A stretch of DNA of 64,000 nucleotides, from contig NW_022985446.1 of the NCBI RefSeq assembly GCF_010093595.1, positions 266,161 to 330,160 of the forward strand. The letters run 5' to 3'. The stretch comes from Mytilinidion resinicola (Eukaryota; Ascomycota; Dothideomycetes; Mytilinidiales; Mytilinidiaceae). The notes below the pieces were generated by a model. The model made no database searches. It was not told the origin of the DNA and saw only the letters and a program-made list of their open reading frames with translations. Below, in pieces: positions 12,724 to 54,079 of the stretch. Numbering within the stretch: the stretch's first letter is position 1; the number at the start of each line of letters is the position of its first letter. The position numbers and the translations under genes were made by a program.

Positions 12724-13611
12724 TCAGCTCCCCGTAAAAGCAAGTGCTAACTCCCCAAGCTCCTCAGTCTCCAATTCGCCATCATCCTCGTCTAACACAT
12801 CCGTCCAGCTTACAAGATCTTCGTCCATTTCTACCTCCACCGGCCCGTCTTCCGTCTTACTTTCTTCCTCCAATTTGCCCGCGAATCTCTTCACACCCTC
12901 CACCCGCGGACCCTTATCCTCCAATCTCGGCGTGAAGCTGCGCCCGATAGCCCATGCAGGTCTCCGCACGGCCTTGTACTGCACCGCGAAGATATGGCTC
13001 CCAAGGCTCAAGCCAGCTAGCTTCCGCGAGGTACTGCTTCCCTTCTCGCCCTTCAGCTTAGGGTTGATTCCAGGGACAACCACACCCGTTGTGGCCGCAA
13101 GAGTTGCGGTCAGGGGCGCCGTCACGCTGCCGGATACAGAGGACTCAAGAGATCGGACGTCAGTGAAACTTGCGTCGGTCCATATCAGCACCGCAACAAT
13201 CATGAATGCTGGTTTCCCTCCTGGTGTTAACATTCGCCCTAAGTCGGCTTTGACTTCGTCATTCTGTCGCATTGAATCGAAAATCGTGTCGTATTTTTGC
13301 ACCCGTACGCTTAGGATTTCTGGCGTCTTGAAGTCTGTGCCGCCTGAGCTTGACTTGGACGCGGCGGCGGAGGCGGATTTGGAGAGTGCAGCCGATAAGG
13401 ATGCGTTGTTTGAGCCGGAGAGAATGCTGCTGGTGTTGACGAGGGCGTTTGCGGAGACGGGGGTTGTGATAAATGGCGAGGGGTCAGAAGGTGTGTATGA
13501 GGCGTCGGGTTCTGCATAATGTTTGACAATTCGGCCAAGCCAGAGGGCGATGTCAGAGGCGGGGATCAAGCGCTCTGGGTCGAGGAGATAGAAAAATGGA
13601 GTGTCGGCCAT
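12724..13611 (-). CDS. Gasdermin-like (RCD-1/HET-Q1-type) protein, probable
   Basis: Single-exon gene of 295 residues from ATG at 13611, close to the 250-300 residues usual for fungal gasdermin-like proteins. The fold is suggested by an N-terminal LIPASD segment (residues 15-20) resembling the LIPV segment of gasdermins, a hydrophobic strand PAFMIVAVLIW (134-144), a low-complexity Ala/Ser/Thr/Gly region (157-180), and G-S-H-I-F-A-V-Q-Y (204-212), which parallels the conserved G-S-x-L-A-F-x-V strand. The last 45 residues are strongly acidic, as expected for a short inhibitory tail removed by a protease. In known fungal systems (HET-Q1, RCD-1) such proteins form plasma-membrane pores and kill the cell. 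The divergent neighbour encodes a CHAT-protease NLR, the expected activator. The family call is by pattern recognition and context only; no alignment was run. Confidence 0.6.
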   Translation of the reverse strand: MADTPFFYLLDPERLIPASDIALWLGRIVKHYAEPDASYTPSDPSPFITTPVSANALVNTSSILSGSNNASLSAALSKSASAAASKSSSGGTDFKTPEILSVRVQKYDTIFDSMRQNDEVKADLGRMLTPGGKPAFMIVAVLIWTDASFTDVRSLESSVSGSVTAPLTATLAATTGVVVPGINPKLKGEKGSSTSRKLAGLSLGSHIFAVQYKAVRRPAWAIGRSFTPRLEDKGPRVEGVKRFAGKLEEESKTEDGPVEVEMDEDLVSWTDVLDEDDGELETEELGELALAFTGS

Positions 13612-14078
13612 GATGTGGATTGTGGGTATGATCACGTGACGTTGGATATGATGGAAGTCGCGGCTGCCAGAGGCGATGGAGTCCTGGAACACTTTAAAGA
13701 CTTTCTCGCCTCGCTCCGTCGTTTCGTTGCTGCCTAGGAGGGGTACGTAGTAGAAAAAGCAAGTTCTGGGCCGCAGCAACCTTGGCTAGACCAATATTCA
13801 GCCGCAGACTGCGGATACCACGGAATCGCCAGAGCTGAACTCGCAGCTCAGCCTCGCCAACAATGCGCAGCCTTGAACTCTTTGGGAAGTGGTAAGCGGG
13901 ATCTAGACCATTTATCACGCTCTATAGCCCATGTGAATCCAGTTTCTGTCGCATACGTTATGCCCAGCAAATTGCTACCACGTCTTTTATATCAGGCGTC
14001 TGCCCAGGGCTGAGGCAGCAAGGTGGGCACCAAGTACGCAAATCCAAAACCAGCGAATTGAGTTGAATAACGAGCAAA
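13612..14078. promoter_or_regulatory. Divergent promoter of gasdermin-like / CHAT-NLR pair
   Basis: These 467 bp separate the two start codons and contain no supported gene, so both genes must be controlled from here. A TCACGTGA palindrome at 13632-13639 sits about 20 bp upstream of the gasdermin-like ATG. Confidence 0.55.
13632..13639. promoter_or_regulatory. TCACGTGA palindrome
   Basis: E-box-type palindrome (bHLH-like site) just upstream of the gasdermin-like start; one of six seen in intergenic DNA of the window. Confidence 0.35.
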
Positions 14079-17000
14079 ATGAGCGTTCTTACAATCACTC
14101 CGTTTCTATCAAGCCATAAACATCCAACTTCGATCTCCTATGACAGTTCTGCAACAACGTGCCTGATCGTGGACCATGAACTTGGCCGCCATATTGAGCG
14201 GGAAATCCCCACACTGTCGACAGCATCTTTAGAGGAGTTTCGCTGGTACCTCGAGGACTACGCCGAGCTTGATCCATTCAATAGCGAGCGTGCGTCGAAA
14301 GCGTTCTCCGCTCTCGTAGCTTACGGCAAGGAGCTTGTAGCCTCACTCAACCTCGCCGCTTTCCTACCCCCATCGAAATTAAACGAGCCACTCGTAGTCA
14401 GAGTCGAGGAACCGGCGCAGGAAGAATTAACCGCAATTGTGTTCTGGGAAGTATTGGAACGCTTAGAACTGTGGCGCCCCTCGCAACGTCCTACGTCGGT
14501 TAATATCATCCGAGTCATTGTCCGAAAACAAGGTCGCGAAGAGGCAAACTCGTCCACTGCCAGAGCAAAACACACGAGTATCCTCCGTGTACTCATTGTG
14601 ACTGCCCGCTCCGGTGAAGACAATGATGTTGCGCCACGACTCGTATCCCGGCTCATCGTAGAGGCCTCAAAGCGGTATGAAAACACCATCAACGTGGAGG
14701 TCGTCCGTCCAGGTACATTCGAAGCCCTTAAGACGCACCTTGAATCGCAAGAGCCAGGCTACTTCAACGTTCTTCATTTCGATATGCACGGCGTGGAGGA
14801 CACGGCAAGTGGCACTATGTTCTTGAAGTTTGTCAAGCACGAGGCCGGATCCGAGTATCTCAAGCTGCGGTCTGATTATCGCACTGCCGCAGAAGTGGGC
14901 GAGTTGCTCCAAAAGCGAGCAGTGGGCCAGGTTGTGCTGAACGCGTGTCGATCTGCGTATGGGTCTAGTCCAGAGACGAACATTGCGAGTGCATTCGTCC
15001 ATGCCGGGGTGCCTGCCGTCGTGGCCATGAGCTTCACAATTGCAGACCGAAGCGTGGAAGTCTTCACTGAAGCGCTCTATCGAGGACTAGCAGAACACAG
15101 ATTGCCACTAGAGGCGGCAGCATCTCTTGCACGGCGAGCCATGGTTCGCAACTCGAATCGAACCACAAAGATAGGGAGTGAGGTCAAGGTCGTGGACTCA
15201 ATTGTGCCAGTCGTTTACCTAGATGCCTCAGTCGATAGACCATTCCCAGAGGCGCTCCCGGAGCTCGAAGGTCTGGAAGAGGAACAAGACCTACGACGAT
15301 TATTCCCGTATGGGCGCGAAACAGATATTATGCACCTTGAATCAGCCCTGCTTATCGGAAGCAAACCCGTCCTCCTCACCGGACCCCCTGGAATTGGTAA
15401 GACGACTCTGCTGAAGCATCTCCGCCGCTGGTGGGCAGTCACGGGCCTTGTGGAAGATGCCATACATATCCAATTGCCCGCGGACCCATTTGATGCGGAT
15501 GCTCTTTACTCTCGCTTACAGGGCTACTTTACTGGTATCAAGTCTCCCGTGGTGCCAGCGAAGCTCTTTGCACATCTGAATAAACACAGATGCGTCATTA
15601 TTCTCGATCGCCTCGAAGCAGTAAACATGGCTCGGAAGTACGGCGTCTTCATCAAATTCATAAAAGCCCTTGCTAAAACGCAAGCGCTTGTGGTGATCGC
15701 TTCCCGGCGCTCAGAGAAATGGCTCGGCGCAGCAACAGTCCCTCATCGCCTATCTGGCCTTCGCACCGTTCCTGGAACGCAGGTTGTTTACGGCATATTG
15801 ACTAGTGCGCAGCAGCTGATGAATATCGGAGATTATAAGTCCGAGGAAGACTTCCAGTATCTGGAACAGATAGTAAATCTGACCTATGGAAACCCACTAG
15901 CGATTCGCCTCCTGGCTCAAGATGGGCTGTGTCTACTGAAGAGTCCTAAAGAGTACTACTTCGACATGTTAAGTGGCAAACATGTCATGCTGAACCGGTG
16001 GGAAGCGAGACGAACGGAGAGCTTGCGCAGCGTTATGCAACTCGATGAGATCGCGGACGAGCTCATGCCGAAGCGCTTGGGGGATGGTTTCACACCCGCC
16101 GTCTTTGCTTGCTTTCAACAGGTATTACCAGTGAATGACCTGGGGAAGTATGTCCAGCTGTGGAGCATGGCTACACAAAAGTTCATGGGCAACACTCCGC
16201 AACAAAAGGCTAAGGCCACACTCGAGATGTTGGAGAACTCTGGAATGGACATGGATGATATGAGTGAGAATATGAAAAATATGGTTCTATTGATGCGACT
16301 TGTGGCTAGTTCCAGCGAAGAGGAGGTGCCGAAACCAAAAGCAGACTTGGCAAGTATCATTATTGCCTATGAGGAAATTGATTTTCCCGAAGTACCTATG
16401 GTCAGTGAGATACTGGAGTCCGGCTGCACAAGGTTCGTGTCAATGTTGGAGGAAGCAGGATTTCTGGAGAAGTTGCCAGCGAATACGGCCACGATCGAAG
16501 GGGATCAGGGTAGGAAAGATAGGGGCTCCATGGCTCTACACCCACTGATCCCCATACTCATGAGGGCGCAACCGGGTTATGAGGAAAACGCACTGAGGAT
16601 TGCTGAGTCAATAAAGCAAGGGTTCGTCCACTACTACTGCTATCGCACGAAACAGTGGCCCTGGTCCAAAATCTACTACAGCCCGACCTGGACACAACCT
16701 CGGGAAGAGTTGCATACAGAGTTTGGTAATTTCGCGGCTGCCACCTTGATTGGACTGCAGAGCGATACATCCGACTCCTTGCAACTAATGTGCCTGTTTC
16801 GACTTGTCAGCGTTATCCAGCGCGGTGTACTCAAGGACCCAGGACGACTCCGAATCGTTGCCGTTCTCTGGGAGCTTGCCCTTACCCGTATTCTCAAAGA
16901 AGTAGACACCCTTAAGATTGAGGCGAAGGAGAAGCCATCCAATCTCTTGGCATCTCTCGAATCTCTGATCGGCGGACTCACGTCTTGGACCCAACCCACT

Positions 17001-17738
17001 CCAGAACCACGGTCCGAGGAAGAAGAAACGGCCGAAATGGCCATTTTTGTTCTACGAGGTATTGCGATGAACTTGGCTGCCAACCTTGGGGGACACTTCC
17101 ACCGTCTACATTCCCCTGAAGCCGCTAAGTTCATCAAAGTCGCCCAGTCGATCATTGACGATGCCCGGGCGCACCTGCCAGCAAGCATCCCGCCGGAGCA
17201 GAAGGAAAAGATGAAGCGCGCTTTTCAACACTGCGAATTCGGTATCCGACTTGTGCTTAATCCTCCTAGTAATGAGCGCGCGAAGAGTGAAGTCTTTAAG
17301 GAAAGAATGGCTTATCAGCGGCTCATATTGGCGGACGAGGGCAGTGAAGAGTATCCGGAGAACCAGAAATCGTGGGAGGACATTCCCGTTGAGATTTTGT
17401 CGTTATCGGCGCCGTTTGGGCACATGATTCCGATATATAGGGATATCCGTGCTGCGATCAAGAGGAAGGACTGGAAAGAAGCAGAAAGAGTTGTGGATGA
17501 GGCCTTTGTGATGGAGCTGAACGACGCGAGTAATGATATTATCAACAAAGCGGGTCTTCTACAAATTAGAAGTGAGATTGCGCAGGGCCAGGGACAGTGG
17601 AAGAATGCTCTTGAGCATTTGCAGGAAGCTTGGAGGCTGCAAGATGGGGTCAGTGGTGGATATTTGTCGGAAGAGGAGCAAAAAGAGAGGACGAGGATGG
17701 TAGAGCAGTTGAAGAGGAGAGGTGGGGAAGTTGGGTAG
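14079..17738 (+). CDS. CHAT-protease NLR (CHAT plus P-loop NTPase)
   Basis: Single-exon gene of 1219 residues. Residues about 165-385 form a CHAT domain, a caspase-like cysteine protease fold. It carries the expected histidine in the HFDMHG segment (H237, with H233 nearby) and the cysteine in LNACRS (C290), followed by the AFVHAGVPAVVA strand typical of the family. Residues about 410-600 are a P-loop NTPase of NACHT/NB-ARC type: Walker A GPPGIGKTT at 435-443 and Walker B VIILD at 506-510. The remainder is helical, with a TPR-like C-terminal part ending in LEHLQEAWRLQ. The layout is effector protease, switch, sensor, as in NLRs. In fungi such genes are reported beside gasdermin-like genes, whose products their proteases are thought to cleave. 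Divergent pairing with the gene at 12724-13611 supports that job here. Catalytic residues look intact. Confidence 0.88.
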   Translation: MSVLTITPFLSSHKHPTSISYDSSATTCLIVDHELGRHIEREIPTLSTASLEEFRWYLEDYAELDPFNSERASKAFSALVAYGKELVASLNLAAFLPPSKLNEPLVVRVEEPAQEELTAIVFWEVLERLELWRPSQRPTSVNIIRVIVRKQGREEANSSTARAKHTSILRVLIVTARSGEDNDVAPRLVSRLIVEASKRYENTINVEVVRPGTFEALKTHLESQEPGYFNVLHFDMHGVEDTASGTMFLKFVKHEAGSEYLKLRSDYRTAAEVGELLQKRAVGQVVLNACRSAYGSSPETNIASAFVHAGVPAVVAMSFTIADRSVEVFTEALYRGLAEHRLPLEAAASLARRAMVRNSNRTTKIGSEVKVVDSIVPVVYLDASVDRPFPEALPELEGLEEEQDLRRLFPYGRETDIMHLESALLIGSKPVLLTGPPGIGKTTLLKHLRRWWAVTGLVEDAIHIQLPADPFDADALYSRLQGYFTGIKSPVVPAKLFAHLNKHRCVIILDRLEAVNMARKYGVFIKFIKALAKTQALVVIASRRSEKWLGAATVPHRLSGLRTVPGTQVVYGILTSAQQLMNIGDYKSEEDFQYLEQIVNLTYGNPLAIRLLAQDGLCLLKSPKEYYFDMLSGKHVMLNRWEARRTESLRSVMQLDEIADELMPKRLGDGFTPAVFACFQQVLPVNDLGKYVQLWSMATQKFMGNTPQQKAKATLEMLENSGMDMDDMSENMKNMVLLMRLVASSSEEEVPKPKADLASIIIAYEEIDFPEVPMVSEILESGCTRFVSMLEEAGFLEKLPANTATIEGDQGRKDRGSMALHPLIPILMRAQPGYEENALRIAESIKQGFVHYYCYRTKQWPWSKIYYSPTWTQPREELHTEFGNFAAATLIGLQSDTSDSLQLMCLFRLVSVIQRGVLKDPGRLRIVAVLWELALTRILKEVDTLKIEAKEKPSNLLASLESLIGGLTSWTQPTPEPRSEEEETAEMAIFVLRGIAMNLAANLGGHFHRLHSPEAAKFIKVAQSIIDDARAHLPASIPPEQKEKMKRAFQHCEFGIRLVLNPPSNERAKSEVFKERMAYQRLILADEGSEEYPENQKSWEDIPVEILSLSAPFGHMIPIYRDIRAAIKRKDWKEAERVVDEAFVMELNDASNDIINKAGLLQIRSEIAQGQGQWKNALEHLQEAWRLQDGVSGGYLSEEEQKERTRMVEQLKRRGGEVG

Positions 17739-18955
17739 TTTCATTGATACTGGGATAAGGAGAGAGTAAAGATAGTTACGGTTAGCCTAGGAGCGAGGGC
17801 TTCCAATAATATACCATGAGATTGCCGTGAGTGTCTTCTCTGATGTTTCAAGTAGAAACAGTGACTAAAGAAACAAGCTTCAGATGACATGGTGGAAAAG
17901 ATCACGACATGGTTTCATGACCTGTGCTATGGTGTCCGGGGCAAGTGTTGTAGGTGGAACGTGCTCGGCATTCACCTCGTATTTTAGGGCACCAATCACA
18001 ACTCTCTTTGTATGTATCAAACTGCTCAGTAAATACTGTTATTGGTGTCTCGTGAAAACAAGGTGAAAGCTTTGTGTCACGGCCGTGACGGACACGTCAG
18101 CGTTAAGAGGCAGGCACGTGGACGGGACCGTATATAGATTACTAGGGTCGAGCCTTATGCTCGACAAGACGATACTCAATACAAAACTTATTTGCAATCG
18201 CAACACAACGATCCTGACGTGCGCGTACGCGCGCGAATGCACGCATACGTCCCTTACACTTTGCATGCTCCATCCATCACACTGACCCTGGGTACTACTG
18301 TATGTTAGTTCAAAGATTCGTTGAAATGAGATTCTAGACCAATGAGATAGGCTGTATAGCAGTAAATATAATTTGAGTGCAGGGGATGGTCATCGCTCCA
18401 CTTATTCTTCCGATCCCTTGCCCATTATTACGATAGTATGAACGCGGCACGTACTGCCATTGGAAGATCGAAAGGTCAGTGACACCCAGTGGCACTAGCG
18501 GGGAGTGTGTTTCATGATTTCTCAGTACTCATAATATGATTTTTCCTGTTCGCAAATTAAATCCCCGGGAATGCCTATCGTTTGTGTACTTTTTCCTGTT
18601 CCTTTAGCCCCCATTTGTTTGACAACCGCTGATTTCAGGCACGAAATTGGTAAATGCCTATGGCTTAAATTTAGGAACTCATTGAGGTTTGAGGAGTGTA
18701 CAAGGTCTAGGTTTATGTCTATATGCAAGGGATCGAGGCCAGGCTGGCCGGTGGCTGATACTTATACGAGAAGGATTCGACGATCTGTTTATTCATCCGA
18801 CTACTACATCATTCTTTAAAAGTAGAAGACGCGGATATATATAGTGTCAATGAATTCATGCACTCTTCTAATAAGTACGATTCAGATTCCGTTCTTTTTT
18901 GACATTTTGCTTTCTTTCCTCAAAAACCCTCAATTATGACATATATCGATTCGTT
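17739..18955. other. Intergenic region with two perfect palindromes
   Basis: No gene is supported. GTCACGGCCGTGAC at 18076-18089 and GCGCGTACGCGC at 18221-18232 are perfect palindromes about 130 bp apart. They could be binding sites, but no partner is evident. Confidence 0.5.
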
Positions 18956-20929
18956 ATGAAGGTCAAGTCGATGGTCCAATCGCTCTTTCTTCCCACGTGC
19001 ACTCTCACTGCTTTCCCTGGCCATGCTCTGGCTCTTCCAACTGTCACGGTTTCCGACGGGGTCCTTGTTGGGACGACCACTACTCTGCCTAGTGCTACCG
19101 CATCTGTAAACAAGTTCCTAGGCGTGCCTTTTGCTGCTATTCCAACGGGCAGCCTCCGTTGGGCCCCGCCGGCAGCTGTTCCCACCTATACGACCAGACA
19201 AGCAAATGCATGGAGCAACTCATGCGTCCAACAGTTCATAGGTATGCCACGCTCTCCATTCAGGGCTATGTGTGCCCCCAAAGCATACGGCTAATCTACA
19301 GCAAGATTCGCCTTACCCGCCAAATCGCACTCAAACCATGCAGCTTTTCAACAATCCTGCCCCGGTAGAAAGCGAAGACTGTCTTTACCTCAATGTTTAC
19401 GTTCCCAGCTCAGGAGCTACAGGAAAGGCAGTCATGTTCTGGATTCACGGCGGGGGACTGGTGTATGGCACTGCCTCGTATCCATGGTATGATGGATCGA
19501 GCTTTGCAGCCCATCAAGATGTTATTGTCGTGGCCGCAAACTATCGCACCAATGGTAAGAAGCATACTTGTTAACAAGGAATAATCGTTCTAATCATACG
19601 TTTTCTAGTCTTTGGCTTCCCTCATTCCGGCGATATAACCGACAAAACCAAATGGAATATTGGCTTCCTAGATCAACGGCAGGCCCTACAATGTAAGTCA
19701 CTGCCACGTAAACGTAAGAGTGTGGTTGGCTTACTCAATCAACTCCAAGGGGTCCAAAAGAACATCGCGGCCTTTGGAGGCGATCCAACTAAGGTAACGA
19801 TCTTCGGTGAAAGGTATACCCACTATCCAAACCCAAGCTCCTCCGTTCTGCAATACATGTCTAAGCCATAGCTTCAGCTCCGGAGCAACATCAGTCGACC
19901 GCTTGGTGACTACCATGGGTAGCAACACCCCCTTCCGCGCCGCCATCATGCAAAGTGGCACCTCCTCAGTCACAGCAGGCGGCGCCGACACCAGTACGAC
20001 TTATTGGGACTCCCTCGTCCAACTCTCTGGCTGCGAGGGTGCATCACCGGTCATTACCTGCATGCGCGGAGTAGCCGCCACCGCCATTAAGAGCACCATT
20101 GAAAAGGACTACAACGCCACTACCCCGTCGACCCCTTTCTTCGCTTTCAATCCTATACCAGATGGTGTCACGGAGCTCGCAAGCCCCGAAGCCTCACGAC
20201 TCGCAGGATCGATTGCCAAGGTACCAGTTCTACAAGGCACAAACGCGCAGGAGGGACGACTCTTCTCAGCCCCATATGCGGTATCAGGTGGGCTGGGCGC
20301 TTTCGTGCAGCAATATTACGGCAAAGCTCCTGGTGCAAACGTAAATGCTATCGATGCCGCCTATCCGGTCCCAGGGGCGTTTCCAGATGATGATACCGCG
20401 ACGGCACAGGCCTGGACGGAGTCGGTGTATCAATGCGTAGGTTCTCGTTCATTATTCCCACGTTGACGTCCCATTTCTTAACAACAACGTCTGACATTTT
20501 TCACAGCCGGCGGCAGTCGTAACCTCCGACGACGCCAAAGCTGGCATACCAGCCTGGCGCTACTACTTCAACGCCTCTTTCGCTAACTACGGAAGCGTTC
20601 CTGGCTTCACGAACCGCGGCGTCTACCACACGACCGAGATCCCGATCGTCTTCGGGACATACCCATCGTCAGGTGCCACTGCTCAGGAGATCTCGCTCAG
20701 CAGTTACATGCAAACTGCTTGGGCTACATTCGCGAAAAATCCTACGAGCGGGCCGGACCCGGCGTGGCCCAAGGTCGGAACGGCGAGCGGGAGCGCGTAT
20801 ATTGGTGTGCTGGGGAACTCGGGGAACACGTTTACAAATCTTACTGTGATCCAGTCGACTACCTTGGATGGGAGGTGTTCGCTTTTTTACCCTATCTATG
20901 GTAATTCAACGACGGGGAACACTTGGTAG
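18956..20929 (+). CDS. Secreted type-B carboxylesterase/lipase
   Basis: Six exons: 18956-19241, 19306-19554, 19609-19692, 19750-19813, 19878-20436 and 20507-20929, giving 554 residues with all phases consistent. The protein begins with a signal peptide ending near A-L-A-L. The fold is the alpha/beta-hydrolase carboxylesterase type: N-K-F-L-G-V-P-F-A near the N-terminus, S-E-D-C-L-Y-L-N-V, an oxyanion-hole HGGG, the nucleophile elbow G-E-S-S-G built across the fourth intron, the acid in G-T-N-A-Q-E-G, and the histidine in G-V-Y-H-T-T-E-I-P. Two acceptors (19305 and 19749) are AAG, not the more common CAG/TAG; these are the choices that keep the conserved frame. The GESSG elbow differs from the usual GESAG but keeps G-x-S-x-G. 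The enzyme would hydrolyse carboxylic esters outside the cell; the substrate cannot be told. ATG at 18956 is preferred over the upstream in-frame start because it directly precedes the signal peptide. Confidence 0.88.
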
Positions 20930-34221: not shown

Positions 34222-36753
34222 ATGTCCACCCTACCCCCCACCACTGCCTTTCGAAACCCCGGCCTCGAAACCCCCGGCCTCGAAAACCTCGAAAACCTAA
34301 AACAGCACTTCATCCATTCTGCTCGCATGATGAGCATAGCCGCCTTCCATGCCGTCCTCCGAAGCCCACTCGTCTCCAAAGCCTGGTTTTATCTCCCCAG
34401 TCACTGTCAAATTTTCATCCTCCACCCCCTAGGCTCTCTATTGCTCCTTTTTCAACTATCAGAAACACGGCAGTTGTGCCTGAGTATATTAGAATGGATC
34501 AATACCGACGCCCCATGCATAGGACTACTAGGGAAGATGTGGGGAGATGCGGGCGAAGTGTGCAAGTATCTGATTACTAGAGTTCTGCTGCATTTTGTTT
34601 CATTTCCGATTCTTAAATCCTTACTCAAGGTAGAGCTGTACGCGCTCCTACTCTCTGGCAGCCTGGTCATTCTTTGGATCTACCTCGCCCGCGCCCACCA
34701 GGCCATCATTACCGCCGCCATCCTCATTGCGGTCCTAATCCCCAACCTCCCCCTCCTCACGATTTTCCACGGCCCCAGCGCGCTGATAAACGCGTTCACA
34801 TACGTCCAAATCGACCTCTCAATCCTTTACCGTCGGTTCTGGGCACCCTTCATCCTCTCCGGCGGCACACGTGATCACAGCCACTACCCACCATACACCT
34901 ACACGCCCCTCCCAACCCCTCGCTCCATCCGCCTCCTCCGCATCCACCCCCGCCGCTCCCGCACCCTCCACTGCACGCTCGAAACCCACACGCTCGGCGA
35001 CCCGCGCACGCCCGCCTACGACGCCCTCTCCTACCACTGGGGCTCCTCCACCCGCACGCACACCATCCTGCTGCACTCGCCCTCGTCCTCCCCCCGCGGC
35101 GCGCAGCCGCCGCCGCTGCCAACGCCAACGCGCCTCCCCGTCCCCGCCAACTGCTTTAAAGCCCTCGCCGACCGCGCCTCGGTCCGCGAGCCGCGCGTCG
35201 TCTGGATCGACTTCCTGTGCATCGCGCAGCGCGACGCGCGCGAGAAAGCCGTGCAGCTCCCGCTCATGCGCGCCATCTACAGCGCCGCACGGCGCACGGT
35301 GGCGTGGGTGGGCGACGCGCACGACGGCAAGCGCGCCGACAGCTTGGTCAAGCGCATGTTCGTCGCGAACGCGAGCGCGCCGGCGCGCCCCCGCGAGGCC
35401 CGGCTCGCGAGCTTGGTCGAGGCCAACAGCGGCGCTGCGCGGGATCGCGAGGCGGCCGCGCTAAGGGACATGCTGGCGCAGGCGTACTGGTTCCGCGTGT
35501 GGATGATCCAGGAGGTGGCGGTGGCGCGGCGCGTGGATGTAAGGTATGGGAATGCGTGGGTCGAGTGGGATATGCTGGCGGCCGTGTGTGCAGTGATTGG
35601 GGATCCGGCGAGGAGGAATCTGGCGCAGGCGATGGTCGTCTTTGATGGCGGGCGCGGGATTGGGTGGGCCCAGGTGAGCACGCTCGATCGGTTTAGGGAG
35701 GAGGTGCAGGAGGGGCGGGAAGTGAGTCTTGTGCACTTGCTTAGCGAGATGGGGGCGTTCGGCGCGACGGAGAAGCAAGATCATGTGTTCAGTCTTGTGG
35801 CGGTGAGTGCGGATAAGGGGGATGCGAGGCTGTTTGAGGATTCTGGGCGGACGCCGGCGGAGGTGTTTGCGCATACGACGAGGTTGTCGCTGGAGCAGGA
35901 TGAGAGGCTGTCGGCGTTGGGCTTTGCGGGCATTGGACATGAATGGGAGGTCCAAGGGCTACCGTCTTGGGTGCCGGATTATAGCTGTCTGCCGAAGACG
36001 TCGCTGTTGCAGAAGATGACGAATAAGAGGTTTTACAAAGCGTCCGGTAGAACGAAACAGAAGGTATCGATTGACACGTCGTCGAATACGTTGTCGGTAC
36101 GAGCGCTTGCAATCGACAACATCGCCACGGTGTCCAAACACTTTGTCCGCCGAAAACAGGACGAGAAAGATGCTTCCGAGTCCTTTGCCGAACAACGCGG
36201 GCCATTCCAGGAGGATGTAGAGCTCTTAGCACGTCGCTGTGACGAGAGATACCCTGTGGGTACCAGCACTCAGAGTCGTCGAGAGGCCACATGGCGGACA
36301 CTGATTGGGAATTGCGTTCATCCGATGACGACGCATGACAGTCTTGAATACCCAGCTCCAATGTCTCTTGCGAACGGAGACCAAGCAACGAAACGACTCC
36401 TTGGTTTCGAATCTCGCTCTAAAGGCTTGGATCCAAGCAAGCATCAACTAGACCCCGATATTGCAGCCTCGCTTCTGGAAGATCTGAAACTATCGAGTGA
36501 ATACGGTGCTGCCGAGGCAGCTTGCGCCTATGGGAGGCGCTTCGCAGTGACTGATGGTGGGAAGATGGCGATGGTGCCACCGGGCGCGAGACAGGGCGAC
36601 TTAGTAGTCGTGATTTTGGGAGCCGAGATGCCATTCCTAGTGAGAAACACTGAAAGCGAGTCGTGGATGCTAGTTGGCGAGTGCTACGTTCATGGGTTGA
36701 TGGAAGGCGAGGCAGTGGGACAATATTCTCCTGAGACGTTTGCACTCATATAA
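34222..36753 (+). CDS. HET-domain protein with N-terminal membrane segments
   Basis: Single-exon gene of 843 residues. Residues about 137-182 contain two strong hydrophobic helices (ALLLSGSLVILWIYL and AAILIAVLIPNLPLLTIF), and a weaker one lies near 64-78. The HET domain begins at about residue 265 with Y-D-A-L-S-Y-H-W-G, continues with V-V-W-I-D-F-L-C-I-A-Q-R-D and V-A-W-V-G-D, and includes the F-R-V-W-M-I-Q-E-V block; these are the three classical HET sub-motifs. The C-terminal region ends in the G-D-L-V-V-V-I-L-G-A and E-C-Y-V-H-G-L-M segments usual for these proteins. HET domains trigger cell death in heterokaryon incompatibility, and the domain is TIR-like. Membrane anchoring is less common for the family and may set where it acts. 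Partners are not evident. High GC in the domain region reflects codon choice. Confidence 0.85.
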   Translation: MSTLPPTTAFRNPGLETPGLENLENLKQHFIHSARMMSIAAFHAVLRSPLVSKAWFYLPSHCQIFILHPLGSLLLLFQLSETRQLCLSILEWINTDAPCIGLLGKMWGDAGEVCKYLITRVLLHFVSFPILKSLLKVELYALLLSGSLVILWIYLARAHQAIITAAILIAVLIPNLPLLTIFHGPSALINAFTYVQIDLSILYRRFWAPFILSGGTRDHSHYPPYTYTPLPTPRSIRLLRIHPRRSRTLHCTLETHTLGDPRTPAYDALSYHWGSSTRTHTILLHSPSSSPRGAQPPPLPTPTRLPVPANCFKALADRASVREPRVVWIDFLCIAQRDAREKAVQLPLMRAIYSAARRTVAWVGDAHDGKRADSLVKRMFVANASAPARPREARLASLVEANSGAARDREAAALRDMLAQAYWFRVWMIQEVAVARRVDVRYGNAWVEWDMLAAVCAVIGDPARRNLAQAMVVFDGGRGIGWAQVSTLDRFREEVQEGREVSLVHLLSEMGAFGATEKQDHVFSLVAVSADKGDARLFEDSGRTPAEVFAHTTRLSLEQDERLSALGFAGIGHEWEVQGLPSWVPDYSCLPKTSLLQKMTNKRFYKASGRTKQKVSIDTSSNTLSVRALAIDNIATVSKHFVRRKQDEKDASESFAEQRGPFQEDVELLARRCDERYPVGTSTQSRREATWRTLIGNCVHPMTTHDSLEYPAPMSLANGDQATKRLLGFESRSKGLDPSKHQLDPDIAASLLEDLKLSSEYGAAEAACAYGRRFAVTDGGKMAMVPPGARQGDLVVVILGAEMPFLVRNTESESWMLVGECYVHGLMEGEAVGQYSPETFALI

Positions 36754-52922: not shown

Positions 52923-54079
52923 TAGTAAATTCAAGAAGACTGGAAAGCCTCCTCGTCGGAGGTAAAGAAGAAGAAATGACGGAAAAGAAGAAGTATCGAC
53001 AAGAGGAGAAGAGACAGTTGTGGCATGTTTTCAAGTAATAGCGTTTAGTGTATATTCATTTGATTCTTTCTATAGCGATGTGGCCCCTTGATGTCTGATT
53101 TGTATCACGCAATGGTGCAAGGCAGATGAGTCTTTGGTGAGCTTTTGCCTTTTTGTTGCTTGTTTTGATATTGTGAAGCGATGGTGTTGGGGTGTTGTGC
53201 AGCTAAACTAGACTATACCCGAGAATACGATGCGAAAACTTCTGAGCAGATTCTTGACATTCTTGTGACACTGAGATCTTGAGGGTTTGATCTAGTCGCT
53301 TCTGGTTGTCGTTCTGGTAGACTTCTCATAGACGGACATATCACTGCTCCGGCTCCACTCTTGCTCGCTGGACAGCACTGTAAGGAGTACCCCAGCCAGC
53401 AGTTATCAACTCCGCCAAAGGCAACTCTGATTTTCACTGCGCTAGGCTTTACATGCGTGTTTGCAGTAACTCTAGCCTTACAGTGTTTAGGTAGACGGAT
53501 ATATCACTATTCCGGCTTCACTCTTGCTCGCTCGACACTGCTGTAAGGAGTACCCCAGCTAGCAGTTCTTAACTCCGCCAAAGGTAACTCTGATTTTCAC
53601 TGCGTTAGGCTTTACATCTGTATTTAAAGTAGCTCTGGCCTTATAATGTTTAGGTAGACGGATATATCGCTGCTCCGGCTCCACTCTTGCTCGCTGGACA
53701 GCACTGTAAGGAGTACCCCAGCCAGCAGTTATTAACTCCGCCAAAGGCAACTCTGATTTTCACTACGTTAGCCCTTACATGCGTGTTTGGAAATTTGAGA
53801 GCCTATCGGGGTACCCCAAGAAGTTGCAGGGAGTACCAAAAACTTATGTCTTGGTGCTGTACCATTTGAAGACAGCCGACAATGTCAAAAGCCTGACTCG
53901 CAAGCAGCCCCAAGGTGACCTTAACATCCTAAGATCTATAGCGAATGACGTCAGGAAAGTGATAAATTCACTCCACGAATCGTTTGACTATAATAGGTCT
54001 TTAACGCTTTACACCACCGCTTCAACTTCTCATAACCTCCAAACTTTGACTCCCCAAACTCTTACCCGCACCCTGCATA
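52923..54079. other. Intergenic region with 162-bp tandem repeats
   Basis: No gene is supported. Small ORFs at 53361, 53559 and 53687 recur only because the DNA is repeated. Confidence 0.6.
53329..53790. repeat. Three tandem copies of a ~162-bp unit
   Basis: Copies start at about 53329, 53491 and 53653, the third being shortened. Each runs from a TAGACGGA(T/C)ATATC start through CTCTTGCTCGCT and AAGGAGTACCCCAGC to an ACTCCGCCAAAGG segment. Copies differ by scattered substitutions, mostly transitions. Confidence 0.85.

Follow-up and report, generated by a model that had tools for sequence, protein, structure and literature searches.

Gasdermin genes of fungi are commonly found next to protease genes. 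About 80% are clustered in this way, the protease being of the CHAT or cysteine-protease type in 17-19% (as given in the portions of PMC10197012, PMC12881547 and PMC10989679 consulted), and the gasdermin-clustered proteases include dozens of NLRs or NLR-like proteins with a CHAT domain (PMC10197012). As reviews report such clusters, gasdermin/CHAT pairs are a kind already described in fungi. In Podospora anserina, activation of a gasdermin by the neighbouring TPR-CHAT protein was demonstrated (Clave et al. 2022, as told in PMC12881547), and HET-Q1 is reported to be cut after F238, which removes ~40 residues at its C-terminus (PMC10989679, in the part consulted). Here we analyse a divergent pair of genes, one for a gasdermin and one for a CHAT-NLR protein, in a 64,000-nucleotide stretch of the Mytilinidion resinicola genome (contig NW_022985446.1, positions 266,161 to 330,160; hereafter the window). 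The two genes are likely to form a regulated cell-death module of this filamentous fungus, working by the mechanism proposed below, in which the CHAT enzyme would cut the neighbouring gasdermin, by analogy with the published pairs. Their layout in the window is as follows.

12724..13611, minus strand: fungal gasdermin gene (fGSDM), 295 residues, single uninterrupted frame, stop included in the coordinates
12901..13611, minus strand: predicted pore-forming gasdermin domain, residues 1-237 (VIA alignments to RCD-1 cover model residues 3-239)
12727..12900, minus strand: acidic unstructured C-terminal tail, residues 238-295, candidate inhibitory part that proteolysis would cut off
12787..12840, minus strand: conserved tail motif MDE....W.D, residues 258-275, candidate autoinhibitory or protease-docking element
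13612..14078: divergent intergenic stretch of 467 bp, probable shared promoter region
14079..17738, plus strand: CHAT-NLR gene, 1219 residues, single uninterrupted frame
14139..15245, plus strand: CHAT protease domain, residues ~21-389 (His237 codon 14787-14789, Cys290 codon 14946-14948)
15300..16628, plus strand: NB-ARC-like NTPase and the helical part after it, residues ~408-850 (Walker A from 15381, Walker B from 15591)
16629..17735, plus strand: helical C-terminal solenoid, residues ~851-1219, probable sensor judging from the model

The distance from ATG to ATG is 467 bp, and the protease gene thus adjoins the gasdermin gene, as for the fGSDM-protease clusters. An earlier note, made from the letters of the window, had described a 295-residue product with LIPASD, GSHIFAVQY and an acidic tail, and a 1219-residue product with a CHAT dyad and Walker motifs. 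All features of the first were located in the minus-strand open reading frame (ORF) 12724-13611; the second carries His237 in DMHG, Cys290 in NACRS, Walker A from residue 435 on and Walker B from residue 505 on. Both frames are genes and not chance ORFs, because Lophium mytilinum has full-length counterparts, a 295-residue protein 95% identical to the gasdermin and a 1212-residue protein 83% identical to the CHAT-NLR. Going by these two proteins, the window comes from an ascomycete that seems closely related to L. mytilinum. An ORF of 266 residues runs antisense to the gasdermin gene; the conservation found concerns the minus-strand product. It could be argued that the pair is decaying or silent, with open frames but a module that no longer works, given that its function is a predicted one and that tandem repeats also occur in the window. 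The full length of the frames and of their relatives, together with the retention of catalytic and Walker residues, makes this quite improbable.

RCD-1 and other gasdermins came top when the model of the 295-residue protein, which is of low confidence, was compared with known structures using Foldseek and VIA. At the profile level, A4 matched RCD-1-1 (E 1.7e-4), RCD-1-2 (E 0.014) and HET-Q1 (E 0.3), the match being significant for RCD-1 only, and A3 matched RCD-1-1 at E 0.027. The earlier note had called this protein gasdermin-like, and had suggested a profile search against gasdermins and a comparison of predicted structure with RCD-1; the call is supported on both counts, since RCD-1 was matched by the A4 profile and by the fold. 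The fold comparison revealed no confident non-gasdermin fold, the outcome named beforehand as refuting. The clade of the window gasdermin is divergent and goes unrecognised by Pfam. One protein with a gasdermin domain, P0149 (JGI metagenome, 569 residues), has a nucleoside phosphorylase domain (PF01048, 12-296) and the gasdermin domain (~339-568) in one frame, the latter short of ~40 residues of the family profile. It is possibly an enzyme-gasdermin fusion, or may be a gene-calling artefact.

In the 1219-residue protein, Pfam detected CHAT (E 1.2e-15) and AAA (PF00004, 22.4 bits for a cut-off of 21.2), while AAA_16 fell below its cut-off by 0.4 bits, NACHT by 5.5 bits, and NB-ARC was also below. 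Structure comparison recovered the CHAT fold for the N-terminal part, so that Pfam and fold both bear out the CHAT-NLR assignment of the earlier note. The catalytic Cys column is invariant in all 12 rows of alignment A5, and the His column is gapped in two of them (P0019, P0020). Residues ~408-850 of the model match plant NLRs, CED-4 and a STAND protein. The C-terminus of the model is all-helical, with a STAND-TPR match at a root mean square deviation of 25, and no repeat family exceeded the Pfam cut-off in this protein.

The 47.1-Mb assembly containing the window (G000, window on contig C10) was searched with the window gasdermin. One further match was obtained, at C22:74019-74759 (24% identical, E 4.6e-4), within a gasdermin-like frame of 273 residues. 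Profile A1, built without the C22 protein, recovers it at E 7.1e-10 among 1735 ORFs, the reverse profile A3 recovers the window gasdermin at E 7.2e-12 among 3078 ORFs, and a comparison of the two profiles gave 97.7% probability (E 2.5e-12). The gene diverging from the C22 frame, 242 bp off, codes for 1670 residues, which match TPR weakly and carry CHAT at the C-terminal end (E 8.9e-31).

L024 995-7071 (G000 contig C22): second head-to-head pair, gasdermin-like gene and TPR-CHAT gene

Both gasdermin-like genes detected in this genome are therefore head-to-head with a CHAT gene, among at least 7 CHAT matches, and a search of the genome with a third relative found no further gasdermin-like gene. 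If genes were placed at random, the chance of the second gasdermin lying within 500 bp of a CHAT gene would be ~1.5e-4, a figure that covers the second pair, whose gasdermin was not picked for its neighbour. The pairing on which the earlier note had built its module is thus backed by a second occurrence in the same genome. Elsewhere, linkage, whose lack of conservation was the other outcome named beforehand as refuting, was weakly examined, in one species: in L. mytilinum both proteins are on contigs of equal size (1613766), which is suggestive of one scaffold, not of adjacency. No literature on gasdermin with L. mytilinum was found.

Residues 237-295 of the gasdermin model are unstructured, with a predicted local distance difference test score (pLDDT) below 50. 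Net charge is +5 for the core (residues 1-237) and -17 for the tail of 58 residues; all 20 family members counted have a tail that is strongly acidic, with net values from -12 to -35. M262, D263, E264, W269 and D271 are invariant across the 14 rows of A1, several of which are near-identical Fusarium proteins. In fragment P0006, which was excluded from A1, W269 is replaced by R. The tail may be an inhibitory, perhaps protease-docking, element.

The mechanism that we propose runs as follows. The CHAT-NLR would be held inactive until a trigger reaches the sensor in its helical C-terminus; plausible triggers are non-self encountered through hyphal fusion, mycoviruses and bacterial cues. The NTPase module would then assemble and bring the CHAT domains together, switching on the Cys290/His237 protease. 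This would cut the gasdermin near the junction between pore-forming domain and acidic tail (~residues 237-258), and the freed domain would insert in the plasma membrane, form pores and kill the cell. The earlier note had spoken of a complete module: this holds for effector, protease and receptor, and does not extend to the trigger.

Several observations weigh against such a module. The 295-residue model has a pLDDT of 52.6. Searched against the PDB, the narrower profile A1 hit no gasdermin, the 295-residue sequence on its own matched none, and Pfam found no family in this protein and no gasdermin in 21 members of its family. These results would fit a protein that is not a gasdermin, either a different two-sheet pore former or an unrelated protein whose weak model makes it look like one. 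Set beside the RCD-1 matches by fold and profile, we regard this as very improbable indeed. For the partner, NLRs and replication AAA+ proteins fit the NTPase part about equally well. As to linkage, a recognisable gasdermin is missing near 5 of the 7 CHAT matches (flanks of ~9-15 kb on each side), and 1 of the 14 relatives has a contig size equal to that of a listed CHAT match. Family cores range in net charge from -3 to +8, and because they are not always basic, simple charge pairing of core with tail is not general. Finally, no cut site was predicted with confidence in the gasdermin. Consistent with the last point, the gasdermin might instead be triggered without the CHAT-NLR, by an allelic partner or another protease, the CHAT-NLR cutting some other substrate. 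RCD-1, the best structural match, indeed acts without cleavage, through the co-existence of the two alleles RCD-1-1 and RCD-1-2 (PMC12881547, in the part consulted). The window gasdermin nevertheless keeps its long acidic tail, conserved motif included, and the head-to-head arrangement is found twice in the genome, so that we hold this alternative to be unlikely and retain the module described above.

More tentatively, and with rather less likelihood than its negation, the pair could be seen as a one-receptor fungal "inflammasome", in which the N-terminal CHAT of the NLR, after a resistosome-like assembly, would cut a gasdermin of an uncharacterised clade. The MDE....W.D tail would serve as lid and docking site, and the two pairs would represent the same effector logic under two sensors, NLR-CHAT and TPR-CHAT.

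Other features of the window were recorded. Carboxylesterase pieces at 18899-20466 (plus strand) are ordered along the profile and are probably exons of an intron-bearing gene, not a broken gene. The contrast that the earlier note drew between the intact pair and many of the genes around it was thus not confirmed, as judged from this one neighbour. An 843-residue HET-domain protein, of a fungal cell-death family, is encoded at 34222-36753 (plus strand; PF06985, E 8.4e-24), 16.5 kb from the gasdermin/CHAT pair. A tandem array at 53329-53789 has a 163-bp unit in 2.8 copies, with 86% matches.

What the locus adds is a gasdermin clade that is divergent and the presence of two gasdermin/CHAT pairs in one genome. 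An NLR-CHAT/gasdermin pair that is compact and looks intact, together with a TPR-CHAT/gasdermin pair, joins a class in which, in the sources as far as consulted, only the P. anserina TPR-CHAT pair is described as tested. Since receptor, protease and pore former fit in two uninterrupted frames, the pair should be easy to move to yeast, where it could be tested directly how a fungal NLR activates a gasdermin protease. As to how this gasdermin clade stays inactive, its conserved acidic tail offers a concrete hypothesis.

Compared with known systems, the window gasdermin shares the fungal gasdermin fold with RCD-1 of Neurospora crassa, but RCD-1 is not controlled by proteolysis, whereas the window protein carries an acidic tail that is both long and conserved, and is encoded next to a protease gene. 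With HET-Q1/HET-Q2 of P. anserina, the likeness would be a gasdermin shortened at its C-terminus by a protease, and HET-Q1 is cut after F238, near the residue where the window gasdermin fold ends; HET-Q2 is an S8 serine protease, while the window partner is a CHAT cysteine protease. Bacterial SAVED-CHAT, Csx29 of Craspase and the gasdermin-protease clusters described in PMC10197012 have in common with the window pair the CHAT fold and the pairing of protease with effector, but differ in having other sensors, partly other effectors and bacterial hosts. The P. anserina TPR-CHAT pair, like ours, groups two genes, one for a gasdermin and one for a CHAT protease of several domains; in the window, CHAT is N-terminal on an NLR-type NTPase, and it is the C22 pair that has the TPR-CHAT layout. 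The CHAT-bearing NLRs published beside fungal gasdermins have the same architecture and neighbourhood as the window pair, from which they differ in that the window gasdermin represents a divergent clade that escapes recognition by Pfam.
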